From positions 62,001 to 126,000 of the forward strand of contig CP076324.1 in assembly GCA_018771605.1 (NCBI GenBank): a stretch of DNA of 64,000 bases. Reading direction: 5' to 3'. The stretch comes from Aquificota bacterium (lineage in GTDB: Bacteria > Aquificota > Aquificia > Aquificales > Aquificaceae). Positions 1-62,304 of this stretch are shown here, piece by piece. A model generated the notes under the pieces. It did not search any database. It was not told the origin of the DNA and saw only the letters and a list, made by a program, of their open reading frames with translations. The stretch's first letter is position 1. Each line of letters starts with the position of its first letter. Position numbers and translations under genes: made by a program.

Positions 1-665
1 CTCATAGTTAGGCTAAGGCTTATGCCTTTTACATATTGACCTTTGGCGCCTGGTGGCTTTGCCTTTACTACCGCGTCTATGGCTGTGTAGATGTTCTCAA
101 TTAGCTTTTGGTTATCAAAGGATATTTTGCCCACGGGCATATGCACGTTTCCTGTCTTGTCTACCCTAAACTCAACCCTTCCCTTTTTGGCTTCCTCTAT
201 GGCTTGCTTTAGGTTTGTGGTTACCGTTCCCGTCTTTGGATTGGGCATTAGACCCTTTGGACCCAATATCTTACCAAGCTTTGCCACTTTGGGCATTATC
301 TCCGGTGTGGCTATAACCACGTCATAGTCTACCCACTCTTCCTTTGCTATCTTGTTTATGAGGTCCTCACCGCCCACATAATCCGCTCCTGCTTCCTTTG
401 CTATCTTTTGGTATTCGCCTTCGGCAAGCACAAGCACCTTTAGCTCTCTACCAAGCCCGTGAGGCAAGACTACCGAACCCCTTACCATCTGGTCCGCATA
501 CTTGGGGTCCACACCCAGCCTCATGGCAAGCTCCACCGTTTGGTCAAACTTTGGACCACATTCTTGATGGAGCTTTTTGAGAATATCCACTGCACCCTCC
601 ACCGAGTAGAGGGCATTCCTATCGTATAGCTCTAAGCACTTCTTGTATTTCTTTCCTCTTACCAT
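1..665 (-). CDS. rplA: 50S ribosomal protein L1 (partial, C-terminus off the left edge)
   Basis: Large-subunit protein that forms the L1 stalk, helps deacylated tRNA leave the E site and in many bacteria represses its own operon. The reverse strand reads [17 protein letters not shown] from 665 and continues with the family's hallmark stretch [20 protein letters not shown]. About 221 codons are visible; the family has about 230-240, so only the last few residues are missing. The start lies 4 bp after the rplK stop, so translation is probably coupled. Identification is secure; the end lies outside the window. Confidence 0.97.
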
Positions 666-669
666 GGCC

Positions 670-1104
670 TTACTCCTTCCATCCTTCTACTTCTATACCC
701 ATGCTTCTGGCAGTACCTACAATCTGCCTAATGGCTGCCTTTATATCCCTTGTGTTCATATCTTTTATCTTCATTTTGGCTATCTCTTCTACCTGTTGAA
801 GAGTTACCTTCCCTACCTTTTGCCTTTTGGGGTCGGATGAACCCTTTTGGACCTTGGCCGCTTTCTTTAGAAGGTAAGACACAGGTGGAGTTTTGAGTAT
901 AAAACTAAAGCTCCTGTCTTGGTATATGGTTATAACCACAGGCACCACAGTGCCAGGTTCAAAGTCCTTGCTGGCTGCGTTAAACTGCTTTACGAATTCC
1001 ATTATGTTTACACCATGCTGACCAAGGGCAGGTCCTACAGGTGGAGCAGGCGTTGCCTGTTGAGCTGGCAACATAAGCTCAACCTTGGCTGTTACCTTCT
1101 TCAT
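670..1104 (-). CDS. rplK: 50S ribosomal protein L11
   Basis: Binds the GTPase-associated centre of 23S rRNA at the base of the L7/L12 stalk and is the target region of thiostrepton. 144 residues, the normal length. The N-terminal domain shows the proline-rich segment [19 protein letters not shown] (about residues 20-38), and the C-terminal rRNA-binding domain ends with [10 protein letters not shown]. It lies between nusG (12 bp upstream) and rplA (4 bp downstream), the conserved bacterial order nusG-rplK-rplA. Very sure. Confidence 0.98.
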
Positions 1105-1116
1105 CTTATGCCTCCT

Positions 1117-1842
1117 TTATAACTTCTCCACTTGAGAATAGTCTAATTCTACAGGCGTTAACCTTCCAAATATGCTAACAAGCACAACTACCTTTTCTTT
1201 TTCTGGATGTACTTCTTCTACCGTTCCAGTAAAGTTCATAAAGGGTCCTTCTATTACCCTAACCTGGTCGCCCTTCTCAAAGAGAATTCGGACAGGCTTT
1301 ACACCCTTCTTAACAAAGGCTATTATCCTTTCCACTTCCTTTTCATCAAGGGGCGCAACCTTCCCACCTACCAATACGGGCTTATAAACGTGAGGGGTCT
1401 TTTCTATGGCACGCATAAGGGCATCGTTCATTATAGCCTTTATAAGGAGATAGCCGGGAAACATCTTTGACTCCAATATTATCTTTGCCTCAGTTTTGTT
1501 TTCCTTGCAGGTTATCTTCTGCCCGGGTTTGGATATGGGCGGAGCTTCCACACATAAGTCTCCTTCTACACTTTCTACTACCTTAACCTCTCCGTTTTCT
1601 ATCCTAAAGGTGGTCACACCCTTTTTGCCAAGCACGCTTATATCTCTGTTGTTTCCACGCAAAGATAGCCTATATTTTTCCTTTCCCATGGTTTTAATAA
1701 CCACCTTTTCCTCTGCAGGCACCACCACATCCTCTACCTGATGGAGAAGTCCTTCCAGCTCCAAAACCTTCAAAAGGTTCTCTCTTGCCGTGGCCTCCTT
1801 TCCAGCCTCAACCTGCAAAGCGTACCATTTAAACTCTTCCAT
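1117..1842 (-). CDS. nusG: Transcription termination/antitermination protein NusG (with inserted domain)
   Basis: Binds RNA polymerase through its N-terminal (NGN) domain, and Rho or ribosomal S10 through its C-terminal KOW domain, coupling transcription to termination or translation. 241 residues against about 180 in E. coli. The NGN fold is split: [12 protein letters not shown] at the start, then a beta-rich insert at about residues 45-130, then [12 protein letters not shown], where the NGN fold resumes. The KOW part begins near [14 protein letters not shown]. An extra domain II at this place is known from Aquifex aeolicus NusG, so the insert is a lineage trait. It starts 1 bp after the secE stop. 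Confidence 0.97.
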
Positions 1843-56585: not shown

Positions 56586-58241
56586 ATGGAACATATCAAG
56601 TGGGTTCTTGGACGCCTAAAAATTTATTGGCATCTCATCCTACTTAGCCTAATAGGCTCTTTGTTTGAGGCTGCTGGGACTGCGGGAGTAAGCCTTCTAA
56701 TAAAATCCTTGGTGGATAAGGTCTTTCTTTTTAAAGAAAAAGAAGAAATCTTTAAGGTAATACTAAGCCTTATAGCTTTTGTGCTTCTTGCACAGATGGG
56801 CAACTTTATGGTCTCTTTCTTTTCTGCCTTATACACAGAGCTTGAAATGAAAAAACTCCGGTTTGAAGCCTTTAAAAAGCTATTAAAAGCAGATTATTCT
56901 GCCTTTCTTGGTGTTTCTCCGGGAGAGTTTGCCTCAAGGGTTATCTCTGATATGAACCTTTATAAAAACCTAATAGGGTCTTACATCATAAAAGTCTTTA
57001 GAGATCCATTAACTACTGTATTCTTATTAGGCGTGCTTTTCTACAGAGATTGGATACTTACGCTTAACTTGGCACTTTTGGTGCCTGTGCTTGCTTTTGC
57101 TATTAAGTACTTTGGGGGCAAAAAAGGAAAACACATAAAAAGGACGCAGGAGGGATATGCTGGTATAACAGATAGACTCTTTAGCTCCTTTTCTGGTTTT
57201 GAAAGTATAAGAAGTTTTAAGGCTCAAGGCATGTTTGAAAGACTATTTGAACAGCTAAACAGGAATCTATTTAGGTCCAGTTTAAAATCGGAGCTTTACT
57301 CCGCTCTTAATTCTGTTTTTAACTACACCTTTGGCTATATTGTGGTAGCTTTGGTCATATTTTATGGCAGCTACAGGATAACAGAAGGTAGCCTTACGCC
57401 TGGAGATTTCCTCTCATACTTGACTGCTTTAGTCTTTTTACAAAACCCACTTATAGAAACCCAAAAGGGTATTATGGAATTAAGGTCTGCACTGCCGGTA
57501 ATAAACAGAATAAGGGAGCTTTTAAACCTTGAAGAAGAAGGGGAAGGTATTCTTAGACTGGAGAGTTTTAAAAGTGAAATAAAAGTTGAAAATCTACTGG
57601 TGAGCGTTGGTGAAGAAAAACTTCTAAAGGGTGTAAATCTTACTATTTACAGAGGCGAAAAGCTTGGCATTATGGGTGATACTGGGTCTGGGAAAAGTAC
57701 ATTTTTGAGGGTCCTTGCAGGCCTTTTGCCCTACCAAGGAAGTGTAAAACTTGATGGCCTTGAGCTAAGTCAAATAAGAAAAGAGGACCTAAGGGAGATA
57801 ATGCTTTTGCTTTCACAAGAGCCTTTTGTATTCCCTGGAACAGTGAGAGAAAACTTAATTATGGCAAAGGAAAAGCCAGAAGAAGACCTCTGGAAAGCCC
57901 TCCATCTGGCAGGGTGCGATTTTGTAAAAAGCCTTGACCAACAGGTAAGTCCCAAAAGTCTATCTGGTGGAGAGAGGCAAAGGCTTGCCCTTGCAAGGGT
58001 ATTTTTAAAGTCTCCAGAGATAATACTACTTGATGAGGCAACCTCTGCCCTTGACGCAAAAAAGGAAGAAGAGGTGTTAAACAATCTCTTTGAACACTTT
58101 AAAGATAAAACTTTTATCCTCGTAGCTCACAGGTTTTCAAACCTCCTAAAGTGCGATAGAGTGGTTGTTCTAAAAGAGGGTAGGGTGGTCTTTGAGGGAA
58201 GACCGAGAGAGGCCATTGACTTTTTCCTTCAAAGTCCATAG
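56586..58241 (+). CDS. ABC exporter, membrane domain fused to ATPase (MsbA-like)
   Basis: 551 residues. Six-span exporter domain (about 1-300) and nucleotide-binding domain with Walker A GDTGSGKST, Q-loop LLSQEP, signature LSGGERQRLALARVFL, Walker B IILLDEATSALD and H-loop VAHRFSN. Homodimer expected. It faces lpxI (lipid A pathway) with a 13-bp end overlap, which fits a lipid A flippase role (inference). The ATG at 56586 has no ribosome site, and an AATAAT/TAAAAT box lies 7-10 nt upstream. Confidence 0.88.
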   Translation: MEHIKWVLGRLKIYWHLILLSLIGSLFEAAGTAGVSLLIKSLVDKVFLFKEKEEIFKVILSLIAFVLLAQMGNFMVSFFSALYTELEMKKLRFEAFKKLLKADYSAFLGVSPGEFASRVISDMNLYKNLIGSYIIKVFRDPLTTVFLLGVLFYRDWILTLNLALLVPVLAFAIKYFGGKKGKHIKRTQEGYAGITDRLFSSFSGFESIRSFKAQGMFERLFEQLNRNLFRSSLKSELYSALNSVFNYTFGYIVVALVIFYGSYRITEGSLTPGDFLSYLTALVFLQNPLIETQKGIMELRSALPVINRIRELLNLEEEGEGILRLESFKSEIKVENLLVSVGEEKLLKGVNLTIYRGEKLGIMGDTGSGKSTFLRVLAGLLPYQGSVKLDGLELSQIRKEDLREIMLLLSQEPFVFPGTVRENLIMAKEKPEEDLWKALHLAGCDFVKSLDQQVSPKSLSGGERQRLALARVFLKSPEIILLDEATSALDAKKEEEVLNNLFEHFKDKTFILVAHRFSNLLKCDRVVVLKEGRVVFEGRPREAIDFFLQSP

Positions 58242-59011
58242 ACAGCTATGCCATATCTGTCTGCAAGCTTTTGAAGTTTTTCCCTTTCCAGTATATAAAC
58301 CTTTCCAGCTTCCAAAAATAGAGCATCGCCCTTTATCTTCCTTATGGCCTCAAGGGTCTTAGGACCAACCGTAGGCACATCTATCCTAAAGTCCTGTGAT
58401 TTTCTTGCGGTTTTAATAACCCTACAGCCTTTCCCTGCCAATTGGCCTGCCCTTTCTATGGCCTTTTGTGTGCCTTCCATGGCTTCCACGCTTACCACAG
58501 CCTTATCTTTTACCACAATGGTCTGCCCAATATCAAGGCTTGCTATCTCCTTGGCTATAGGAAAGCCCCAAAGGCCATCCTCCATGGCAGAAGGAGAAGG
58601 TTCAAGGGAGGATATCCTACCCTCTGGTGCCAAAAGGTCCTCCAAAAAGGGCCTTGGGTCTGGGAATTCAAAGCCCATAGATTCCAACTCTTCTATGAGT
58701 GTTTTTACAAGAGTTTGTGGCTTTTTATCCTTGGATTTTTGGAAGATTCTGAGAGCCACCTCATCAAGGGTCAAAAGGTGGGAAAAGATCAGGCTATGTT
58801 CAAACTTTCCCAGCATAACTATTTTATCTATGCCTTGTTTTTCAAGGGTCTTTATAAGCCTTCCCACCTTTCCCAAGGGTAGGTATTCATCGGCAGGGAG
58901 GTCCGTTATGCCCTTTACACCAACCACAAAAACATCAAAGCCCTTTTCCCTTGCCTTCTTTAAAAACACCTTAGGAAGTTCGCCAGAACCAGCCACAAGA
59001 CAGAGCTTCAT
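58229..59011 (-). CDS. lpxI: UDP-2,3-diacylglucosamine diphosphatase LpxI
   Basis: Lipid A pathway pyrophosphatase used where LpxH is absent. 260 residues. N-terminal LCLVAGSGELPKVFLKKAREKG, then LGKVGRLIKTLEKQGIDKIVMLGKF, and the C-terminal domain with SVEAMEGTQKAIERAGQLAGKGCRVIKTARKSQDFRIDVPTVGPKTLEAI in parts; the DxDxRxDxPTVG-like catalytic block is recognisable. Its presence implies an LPS-bearing outer membrane. Confidence 0.93.
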   Translation of the reverse strand: MKLCLVAGSGELPKVFLKKAREKGFDVFVVGVKGITDLPADEYLPLGKVGRLIKTLEKQGIDKIVMLGKFEHSLIFSHLLTLDEVALRIFQKSKDKKPQTLVKTLIEELESMGFEFPDPRPFLEDLLAPEGRISSLEPSPSAMEDGLWGFPIAKEIASLDIGQTIVVKDKAVVSVEAMEGTQKAIERAGQLAGKGCRVIKTARKSQDFRIDVPTVGPKTLEAIRKIKGDALFLEAGKVYILEREKLQKLADRYGIAVYGL

Positions 59012-59020
59012 ATAGACATT

Positions 59021-59392
59021 TTACATTCCTTCCCTTGTGCTGTAAATATCCTCTTGCATTTCTTCCATTATGTAGCTAACTTTCTTTTTTAAATCTGGAA
59101 TATCTTTCTCTATGGTTTCCCAAACTATTTTGTAATCTACTCTAAAAAACTCGTGGATAAGTTTATTTCTCATTCCTCTCATTTCCTTCCATGGTATGCC
59201 TGTATATTTATGTTTGATTTTGCTTGAAATTTGTATTCCTGCTTCGCATATAACCTCTAAACTTCGCACGAATGCTCTTTTAAGCGTTTCATCTTTAATA
59301 AAGTCCTCATAGGTAAGCTTCTGAGATTCTTTTAGAACATAATCGCACTCATTTATAATATCTTTTAGATAATCTATTACCCTTCTTTTCAT
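59021..59392 (-). CDS. HepT-like HEPN-domain ribonuclease (toxin of a HepT/MntA pair)
   Basis: 123 residues, all-helical DUF86 domain. The RNase motif RX4H is present as R75-NKLI-H80, but the following residue pair is E81-F82, so the usual RX4HXY tyrosine, which MntA modifies with AMP in studied pairs, is phenylalanine here. Other family marks: RSLEVICEAGIQIS and GIPWKEMRGMRNKLIHEFF in parts. The gene starts within the last 4 bp of its partner. Likely a toxin that cuts tRNA or mRNA; activity not provable from sequence. Confidence 0.85.
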   Translation of the reverse strand: MKRRVIDYLKDIINECDYVLKESQKLTYEDFIKDETLKRAFVRSLEVICEAGIQISSKIKHKYTGIPWKEMRGMRNKLIHEFFRVDYKIVWETIEKDIPDLKKKVSYIMEEMQEDIYSTREGM

Positions 59393-59718
59393 ACATAGGC
59401 AATTTCTTGTGGAACTTCTTGTGATTCTAAAGCTTCCTTTGAAATTAAATTCACCTTTTTTCCTATAGTTTCCGAAAGATAATTTTCAAGACGGATGAAC
59501 TCAAAAAAAGTAGGCGGCTTATAGAACTCTACAAGTATATCTATAGTACCTCTCTTTATCTGTTTCTTTCTTATCCGAGAATCAAATATTCCAATTTCTT
59601 TAACGTTGTATTCCTTTTCTAACCTTGGTTTTAACTCTTTTAGTATAACTTTAACATCTTCTAAGGTTTCCACTTTTTTACTTCCCTTCAAGCCCTTCAT
59701 ACTATATAATATATACAC
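59389..59718 (-). CDS. MntA-like nucleotidyltransferase antitoxin with altered active site
   Basis: 109 residues from ATG 59718, or 103 from ATG 59700 (MKGLKGSKKV). The fold is a minimal nucleotidyltransferase: VKEIGIFDSRIRKKQ...TIDILVEF...FEFIRLENYLSETIGKKVNLI. The family motif GSX10DXD reads D46-S47-X10-T58-I59-D60, so the glycine and first catalytic aspartate are changed while the spacing is exact. AMP transfer should be lost or weak. Overlaps hepT by 4 bp (ATGA). No recombinase or phage gene nearby. Confidence 0.82.
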   Translation of the reverse strand: MYILYSMKGLKGSKKVETLEDVKVILKELKPRLEKEYNVKEIGIFDSRIRKKQIKRGTIDILVEFYKPPTFFEFIRLENYLSETIGKKVNLISKEALESQEVPQEIAYV

Positions 59719-59726
59719 TAATTGTC

Positions 59727-60287
59727 TTATAAAGTTTTCCTTCCTATTAGCTTAAGAAACTCCTCCCTTGTCCTGAGGTCGCTGAGGAAAAGACCCCTTA
59801 GGGCAGATGTAACTGTTAGATGCCCAGGAGACATAACTCCCCTCATAGACATACAAAGATGTTCCATCTCCAAGACTACAGCCACACCTTTTGGTTTTAA
59901 CTGTTCCATGAGGAAATCTGCAATCTGGTTTGTAAGCCTCTCTTGCACCTGAGGTCTTAGGGCAAAGGCCCGCACAGTCCTTACAAGCTTGGAAAGACCG
60001 CATACTATACCATCGGGTATGTAGGCGATATGCGCTTTACCGAAGAAGGGCAAAAGGTGGTGTTCGCACAGAGAATATATATTCACATCTTTTACAAGCA
60101 CCATTTCGTTATAAGACCCAAACTCCTCAAAGAGCTTAAAGTCAAAATCCCTTTGCCTTTCAAACTCTTCCCACATACGTGCTACTCTATCGGGAGTCTC
60201 CAAAAGGCCTTCTCTGTTTGGGTCTTCTCCTATACCTTCCAAAAAAAGCCTTATGGCCTGTTTTATTTTTTCCTTGTCTATTGGCAT
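59727..60287 (-). CDS. folE: GTP cyclohydrolase I
   Basis: Zinc enzyme that starts tetrahydrofolate synthesis from GTP. 186 residues. Zinc cysteines and histidine in [20 protein letters not shown] (C, H) and [10 protein letters not shown] (C); GLSKLVR and [14 protein letters not shown] are family motifs. folP, a later step, is in the window at 62291. The ATG has TATAAT 6 nt upstream and no ribosome site. Its start is 15 bp from the divergent psiE start. Confidence 0.96.
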
Positions 60288-61547: not shown

Positions 61548-62304
61548 TTTCTATCCTCAACTCCTTAATAAGTAATGTTCTCAACATTTCTGGGTCAAGA
61601 TTTCTTTGTAGTTTACCATCAACGGCAAGGGAGATCTCTCCAGTTTCTTCCGAAACTACTACGCAAAGGGCATCAGTCTCCTCAGATATGCCAAGTGCAG
61701 CCCTATGCCTTGTGCCGTACTTTTTGGGAAGCTTGGAAGATTTAGAAAGGGGTAAAATGCAGGAAGCGTAGACAACTCTATCCCCTCTTATTACCACAGC
61801 ACCGTCATGTAATGGAGATAGTGGGTTGAAAATAGTAATCAATAGTTCAACGGAAACAAGACTGTCTATTAGAACGCAACCTTCCACAATACCATCCACA
61901 CTTTGCGATCTTTCTATAACTATAAGCCCTCCTATCTGTCTTTCGGAGAGAAAAGAAGAAGCCCTAACAACCCTATCCACTACCCTTTCTCCCACAGGCT
62001 TTATAACAGGAACTCCCGTTTTTTGTCCAAGCCTGCTTAAGGCTTTTCTTATTTCAGGTTGGAATATAACCACAAGGGAGAAAAGTCCCACAGTCCATAG
62101 CTTTTCAAAGACCCAAGAAAGGGTACTAAGACCCAAAAGCTCCGCAACAAGCCAAAAAATGGCCAAAAGACTTAGGCCTTTGAATATTTGAAAACCTCTC
62201 GTTATACGTAAAAAGTACAAGATGCCATAAAAAAACAAAGAAACAGACAGTATATCTAAAAGGTCCTTCCAAGATATAACCTTTAAAAAGTCAAAATTCA
62301 CCAT
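61540..62304 (-). CDS. cdaA: Diadenylate cyclase CdaA
   Basis: Makes the second messenger c-di-AMP from two ATP. 254 residues: three N-terminal membrane spans (about 15-85) and the DAC domain with the catalytic DGA (NPLSPLHDGAVVIRGDR) and RHR (GTRHRAALGISEETDAL) motifs, both intact. Operon order folP-cdaA-cdaR-like; the 14-bp overlap with folP indicates co-translation. No glmM in the window. Confidence 0.95.
   Translation of the reverse strand: MVNFDFLKVISWKDLLDILSVSLFFYGILYFLRITRGFQIFKGLSLLAIFWLVAELLGLSTLSWVFEKLWTVGLFSLVVIFQPEIRKALSRLGQKTGVPVIKPVGERVVDRVVRASSFLSERQIGGLIVIERSQSVDGIVEGCVLIDSLVSVELLITIFNPLSPLHDGAVVIRGDRVVYASCILPLSKSSKLPKKYGTRHRAALGISEETDALCVVVSEETGEISLAVDGKLQRNLDPEMLRTLLIKELRIENA

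Follow-up and report, generated by a model that had tools for sequence, protein, structure and literature searches.

A HepT/MntA-type gene pair of an Aquificota bacterium that has lost AMP-transfer residues in both partners and may now work by contact

The window, that is the whole stretch of DNA analysed here, comprises 64,000 nucleotides (positions 62,001 to 126,000) of contig CP076324.1 of an Aquificota bacterium. It carries two open reading frames (ORFs) on the same strand which overlap by 4 bases, an MntA-like MNT gene and directly downstream of it the HEPN gene hepT (Table 1). The gene order, MNT then HEPN, is that of HepT/MntA modules. The true start of MntA is probably the GTG at 59673 rather than the listed GTG at 59718, because relatives align from about METLEDVKV...; the choice alters residue numbering only. 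The pair is flanked, with gaps of a few bases, by two genes which we take to be folE (GTP cyclohydrolase I) and lpxI. A promoter scan returned 4 promoter-like sites versus 3.2 expected and is thus uninformative.

Table 1. Features of the pair and its surroundings, in window positions unless given as genome positions; "other rows" are those of the phylum alignments described in the text.
Feature	Position	Strand	Comment
MntA-like ORF	59389-59718	minus	109 aa from GTG 59718; antitoxin position; predicted pseudo-nucleotidyltransferase
HepT ORF	59021-59392	minus	123 aa; PF01934 match
MntA D46 codon	59581-59583	minus	replaces G of the GS motif; G in 89/90 other rows with a letter there
MntA G57 codon	59548-59550	minus	replaces S before DxD; S in 90/91 other rows
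MntA T58 codon	59545-59547	minus	replaces first Asp of DxD; D in 90/91 other rows; D60 kept
MntA N90 codon	59449-59451	minus	replaces third metal-binding Asp; D 87, E 3, N 1 of 91 other rows
MntA C-terminal tail	59392-59439	minus	short and divergent; cf. alpha-4 in Shewanella MntA
HepT R75-x4-H80 RNase motif	59153-59170	minus	kept; R in 52/52, H in 51/52 other rows
HepT F82 codon	59147-59149	minus	replaces AMP-accepting Tyr; Y in 52/52 other rows
Insertion holding the pair	59012-59726		~715 bases, ~31% GC; between folE and lpxI
folE-like gene (GTP cyclohydrolase I)	59727-60287	minus	neighbour
lpxI-like gene	58229-59011	minus	neighbour
L041 MntA, GS-x10-DxD	genome 811677-811925		no HepT match adjoining
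L058 MntA, GS-x10-DxD	genome 1044552-1044794		no HepT match adjoining

Membership of HepT in Pfam family PF01934 is clear (93.6 bits, cut-off 23.5), while its score of 55.9 bits lies below the cut-off of 60 of the type VII HepT equivalog NF047751 of NCBIfam. MntA exceeds the cut-off of NTP_transf_2 (PF01909) by a narrow margin (21.6 bits, cut-off 21) and stays far below that of the MntA equivalog NF047752 (16.9 bits, cut-off 60); its best PADLOC match is PDC-S09 (E 3.5e-19). The MntA sequence gave no match to PDB chains at E values up to 0.01. The monomer models (pLDDT 82.9 for MntA and 92.9 for HepT) keep both folds. In Foldseek the first six matches of the MntA model are chains of the Shewanella MntA-HepT complex (7bxo, 7aer, 6m6u, 6m6v), with moderate TM scores by query length of 0.55-0.59, and the first PDB matches of the HepT model are the HEPN toxin chains 7ae6, 7ae8 and 7ae9, the first nine matches having similarly moderate TM scores of 0.61-0.69. 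Kinship of both proteins to the HEPN/MNT family is secure, which the motifs are not. Judged by sequence, the pair is of type VII descent; of the two motifs that define this type, RX4HXY and GSX10DXD, neither is found intact, and for this reason the pair should not be classed as a functional type VII system.

The residues of the pair were compared with those of relatives in the phylum. In a protein search of the phylum (136 genomes) MntA relatives turned up in 50 genomes and HepT relatives in 44. From the loci of the MntA search an alignment of 92 MntA-like and 53 HepT-like rows was made, window included, leaving out the four weakest MntA places, matches with a model coverage below 80%, identical sequences and L001, a duplicate locus. 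The original prediction had described the MntA motif as D46-S47-x10-T58-I59-D60, with glycine and first aspartate replaced at exact spacing, and it was located just so, following F45. Both of these replacements were borne out, and two more, at G57 and N90, had been missed. In the alignment seven columns, F, G, S, S, D, D and D, are at least 96% conserved, and in the window MntA they read F, D, S, G, T, D and N. Four of six active-site columns are thus lost, with F45, S47 and D60 kept. By its position in the KVDL stretch, rather than by structural superposition, N90 is taken as the probable counterpart of Shewanella D71, which according to PMC7641770 binds Mg. The MntA tail is the shortest of the 53 pairs, with 20 residues (next 22, median 23).

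In HepT the stretch R75-N-K-L-I-H80-E81-F82-F83 likewise agrees with what had been predicted, namely a Tyr to Phe change at position 82 next to preserved RNase residues: R75 and H80 remain. Two conserved Glu of HepT are also kept. In helix alpha-2 the window HepT has C49, I53 and S56 where the relatives of the phylum mostly have G, K and P. The C and the I are those found at these places in Shewanella HepT, and the G to C and K to I changes were accordingly set aside as signs of decay.

Of the five altered codons, four (D46, G57, N90 and F82) would each encode the usual residue after a single base change, whereas T58 needs two to become Asp. One sequencing error is ruled out because T58 needs two base changes and the other active-site codons differ too, five in all, in a genome assembled as a single contig. 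Frameshift or pseudogene formation was set aside, both ORFs being open.

The combination of losses is rare. Among the 53 pairs of the phylum 49 are canonical throughout, reading GSSDDD in the MntA columns and RHY in HepT. The other four are L013 (GSSDDD and RRY), L012 (GSSDDE and RHY), L056 (--KYEE and RHY) and the window (DSGTDN and RHF), which is the sole pair without the acceptor Tyr and the only one (1/53) with losses on both sides. Of the 92 MntA rows 39 have no HepT row, four of them non-canonical at one column (L020, L034, L042 and L074). Among the partial or stop-bearing MNT fragments which had been dropped, non-canonical motifs were seen in L061 and L084 (CS), L080 (GL), the second MNT of L064 (AxD) and L088 (RxR). 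A follow-up of 40 loci, 30 of them from the HepT search (for the most part genes already covered) and 10 additional ones, with the four weakest MntA places and HepT-only places included, gave no second Phe at the HepT Tyr position and one Tyr to Cys change, in L182. In this locus (genome G123) the MNT gene (360-682, plus strand) has its GS-x10-DxD but lies broken across two frames, and the HepT-like gene (723-1085, plus strand) has Cys for Tyr; loss of the Tyr can therefore also accompany plain decay. L056, from a genome of the window's genus (G048), has an MNT gene (1282-1749, minus strand) without the G-loop motif and with an odd C-terminal extension, next to a HepT (875-1231, minus strand) which keeps R, H and Y. 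It resembles a case of ordinary decay and serves well for contrast with the window pair.

Two other kinds of variant were seen in the phylum. In L013 (G028), near the branch of the window, HepT (1109-1504, minus strand) has Arg instead of the RNase His (R-x4-R-E-Y-F) and its MntA partner is canonical; judged by these residues, the toxin of this pair is probably dead. In three genomes of one genus (L012, L026 and L027, of G046, G036 and G037 respectively) MntA and HepT are fused in one frame of about 230 residues, and GS-x10-DxD and HxY are kept.

Beyond the phylum, the Phe version of a HepT sequence pattern was run over the contigs of 84,980 species (genome_contigs) and matched 5 stretches, one of them a HepT, in a Fibrobacter metagenome-assembled genome (MAG; L095); the pattern demands Gly after F-F and would miss the window HepT and other variants. 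The Tyr version had 21 matches in 20 of the 136 genomes of the phylum, and in viral contigs the same pattern matched 5 times with Tyr versus 0 with Phe. The Fibrobacter HepT reads H-D-F-F, and its MntA keeps GS-x10-DID with the third Asp changed to Asn. Asn at this position occurs in 1 of the 91 other MntA rows of the phylum, that of L020 (G131; 1408-1821, plus strand), which keeps GS-x10-DID; no HepT match was found in the 3.3 kb around this MntA. Asn at the third Asp is thus seen three times (window, L095 and L020), each time where the acceptor Tyr is not found, a suggestive coincidence of sequences made up of few cases, noticed post hoc and, outside the phylum, drawn from the pattern search alone. 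Viral relatives are few; by eye, GS-x10-DxD and HxY are intact in all of them, as far as both are present, and in two viral contigs (L101, identical with L166, and L102, identical with L167) the third Asp is Glu. Plasmids gave no DNA match to the pair, and at the protein level 6 plasmid records have MntA relatives and 1471 have HepT relatives. A literature search, limited mostly to openly readable papers, found no description of a natural HEPN/MNT pair with both losses.

The genome of the window carries other genes of these families. Two MntA genes with an intact motif, L041 and L058, are listed in Table 1, and directly downstream of one of them lies an ORF which we take to be transposase-like. 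The original prediction had named another MntA serving this HepT as a finding that would speak against it. Other MntA genes do exist, but by appearance they belong to other subfamilies and the Phe of the window HepT is not AMPylatable. Binding of the window HepT in trans by one of these MntA proteins is possible. The genome further contains a weak HepT-like match (24.3 bits, one internal stop) beside a further MNT with GS-x10-DxD, and in L002 (1450-2328, minus strand; genome 968308-968655) a 292-residue protein with a HepT-like match of 52.9 bits, which by eye looks like two HEPN repeats without R-x4-H.

All 13 other genomes of the genus have, by match coordinates, their folE and lpxI matches side by side on a single contig and the same strand, and the sequence of the empty site was read in 5 of the 13; hence the pair is an insertion. 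Its GC content of ~31%, compared with 41-47% in the adjoining gene stretches, is not telling alone, values between 32 and 44% being found in segments further away. A search for terminal repeats such as a mobile element would have gave only short repeats, and this idea was set aside. Fourfold sites of folE and lpxI differ by 52% (86/164) from the nearest relative by that measure, G048, so that there has been time enough in this lineage for an insert without use to break down. The residue losses may have preceded insertion at the folE-lpxI site. Comparable HEPN-MNT insertions, one of them inside a lysine operon, are described for Deinococcus and Thermus in PMC2701414.

Unselected genes would change evenly throughout, and the uneven change of the window pair therefore disfavours a plain loss of selection. 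In a leave-one-out profile the six catalytic columns of the window MntA score lowest of 91 rows (-6.2, the next being 15.6), while its other well-filled columns are ordinary (26th lowest of 92). HepT outside the motif is 7th lowest of 53. Identity by region was compared between the window and its siblings (11 for MntA and 7 for HepT) and among the siblings themselves. At sibling level are MntA beta-1 (0.65 vs 0.52), beta-2 (0.91 vs 0.82) and alpha-1 (0.49 vs 0.52) and the HepT helix bearing R75 and H80 (0.67 vs 0.68). Identity falls furthest in two parts of MntA, its G-loop (0.37 vs 0.70) and its C-terminal tail (0.25 vs 0.62), and in the Y-loop of HepT (0.55 vs 0.81), with smaller drops in MntA beta-3, which holds N90 (0.48 vs 0.66), and alpha-2 (0.44 vs 0.56), and in HepT alpha-1 (0.46 vs 0.55) and alpha-2 (0.70 vs 0.82). 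That the strongest drops fall on the AMP-transfer surfaces of studied pairs is the chief argument for a loss of AMP transfer specifically.

Decay was also simulated by unconstrained point mutation of seven sibling pairs in 2800 runs, each stopped when 4 of the 6 catalytic residues had changed. MntA was free of stops in 263 runs and neither gene had a stop in 28; the non-catalytic MntA score was as good as that of the window in 24, and the whole observed state was reached in 2. In an earlier simulation with 7 start sequences stops arose in 91-95% of runs for every start. With L007 as start the 97.5th percentile (1.73) exceeded the window score of 1.348, so that the criterion of non-catalytic score depends on the chosen ancestor. 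In a tree of the 53 pairs the window falls in a fork with five pairs (SH-aLRT 88, not starred), all of which have the canonical MntA motif and the HepT Tyr, one of them with a His to Arg change. Its end branch of 0.81 is the sixth longest of 53 (median 0.26) and, together with the low profile rank of HepT, makes some relaxation of selection likely. The original prediction had held that the matching loss is not random decay of one gene, and this part stands: loss of the AMP-transfer residues on both sides is real, found in one of the 53 pairs, and is not what unconstrained decay gives. Its further suggestion, that the pair now works by binding alone, fares less well, in view of the diverged tail and of the insufficiency of binding in Shewanella.

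On the mechanism, published tests are given in PMC7641770. In Thermococcus cleftensis a Tyr to Phe change in HepT and a GS to AT change in MntA each abolish modification. With DxD changed to ExE in the Shewanella MntA, HepT is unmodified yet bound, and the DxD-changed Shewanella MntA was found by Yao et al. 2020 to bind HepT and to neutralise it less well (PMC7641770). Binding without AMP transfer is judged insufficient in Shewanella, where alpha-4 of MntA is the main contact; binding is called important in earlier and insufficient in later work of this one research line. According to PMC11586414, a Legionella MNT without an alpha-4-type helix still binds, via alpha-2, so that contact may do without alpha-4; the paper also describes a HEPN toxin held in check by its self-assembly. 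AMP transfer to position 82 of HepT would be very unlikely, because the window has both MntA-type and HepT-type changes, each of which abolishes modification in studied pairs.

The explanation which we prefer is descent from type VII with AMP transfer abandoned on both sides and MntA kept as a non-catalytic partner that restrains HepT by contact; as a whole it has, in our estimate, a probability of roughly one half. Most likely one side was lost first, for example by the Tyr to Phe change, and as a loss on one side makes the chemistry of the other useless, the partner's active site and tail would then have been free to drift while selection kept both folds. MntA would now be a pseudo-nucleotidyltransferase, with the glycine of GS and two of three metal-binding Asp gone and the fold retained, and HepT, without the AMP-receiving Tyr and with R75, H80 and the two Glu in place, would still be an RNase, restrained most likely by complex formation with MntA, possibly via the alpha-2 helix. 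That the module as such turned binding-only, donor and acceptor lost and folds kept by selection, making MntA a natural pseudoenzyme antitoxin, is a tentative proposal to which we give somewhat less than even odds. Against binding speaks that the tail of the window MntA, matching the contact end of the Shewanella protein, is its most diverged part (25% vs 62% identity).

We think it rather unlikely that the pair is simply decaying, that is, that it became useless after insertion, with HepT harmless and with AMP transfer and then the rest eroding, the frames being open by chance or through weak constraint. Such a course would agree with the presence of the insertion in this species only (compared with 13 other genomes of the genus), with the long end branch, the diverged MntA C-terminus and the reduced HepT profile score, and with the occurrence of other pairs in visible decay, namely L056 of the same genus and L182, where the Tyr is lost too. 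Neutral simulation nevertheless arrives at the observed state in hardly any run, the non-catalytic MntA columns are ordinary, HepT keeps R75, H80 and both conserved Glu, and in L182 the frames are broken and GS-x10-DxD is kept, the reverse of the window pair. It is improbable that HepT merely escaped modification and that the pair is now an RNase or RNA-binding module under restraint or put to a new use, for instance tuned by self-assembly of HepT, with MntA only a folding partner. Here the published case of a self-assembling HEPN toxin (PMC11586414) and C49, I53 and S56 of alpha-2 in place of G, K and P, the first two as in Shewanella, have to be set against an intact R-x4-H motif.

Much less probable still is that another MntA of the genome serves the window HepT in trans. 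L041 and L058 have the motif and no adjoining HepT match, but they align as other types (34% and 32% identity, with different C-terminal halves) and F82 has no hydroxyl to accept AMP. We give hardly any credit to AMP transfer persisting with unusual residues or at another acceptor: D60 and S47 remain, but the Gly is gone along with the first and the third Asp, and in published work a change of GS or of DxD by itself already abolishes modification.

The shares of contact and of AMP transfer in the silencing of HepT by MntA have been weighed differently within one research line (PMC7641770). A natural pair in which the chemistry has been given up on both sides and the folds kept would be a ready-made case of separation of function. 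If the window MntA still neutralises, contact can suffice and a type VII system can shift to a type II-like mode; failing that, the pair would illustrate the way in which such modules perish once they have landed between housekeeping genes.

In type II RNase toxin-antitoxins the toxin is neutralised by direct protein contact, and the likeness of the window pair to these would lie in the proposed contact-only neutralisation, homology not being implied. The closest comparison is with the type VII pairs of Shewanella oneidensis (SO_3166/SO_3165; 5yep, 6m6u-w, 7bxo) and T. cleftensis (CL1_0071/CL1_0070), which share with the window pair the MNT-then-HEPN order, both folds and R-x4-H. Unlike these pairs, the window MntA has neither the Gly nor the first and third Asp nor the Ser before DxD (the latter by phylum consensus), the window HepT has no Tyr, and the MntA tail is shortened relative to relatives of the phylum. 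The Legionella pneumophila HEPN-MNT (8xeh, 8xeo) keeps GSX10DXD and RX4HXY and is AMPylated, whereas the window pair has neither motif. The siblings of the phylum (L006, L008, L011, L014 and L019, with L015 in addition for HepT) are 36-46% identical to the window in MntA and 47-51% in HepT over the alignments, and all have the canonical GS-x10-DxD, third Asp and HxY which the window lacks. The Fibrobacter pair L095 shares with the window the change of Tyr to Phe and of the third Asp to Asn, and differs in being a distant pair with GS and both Asp of DxD intact.
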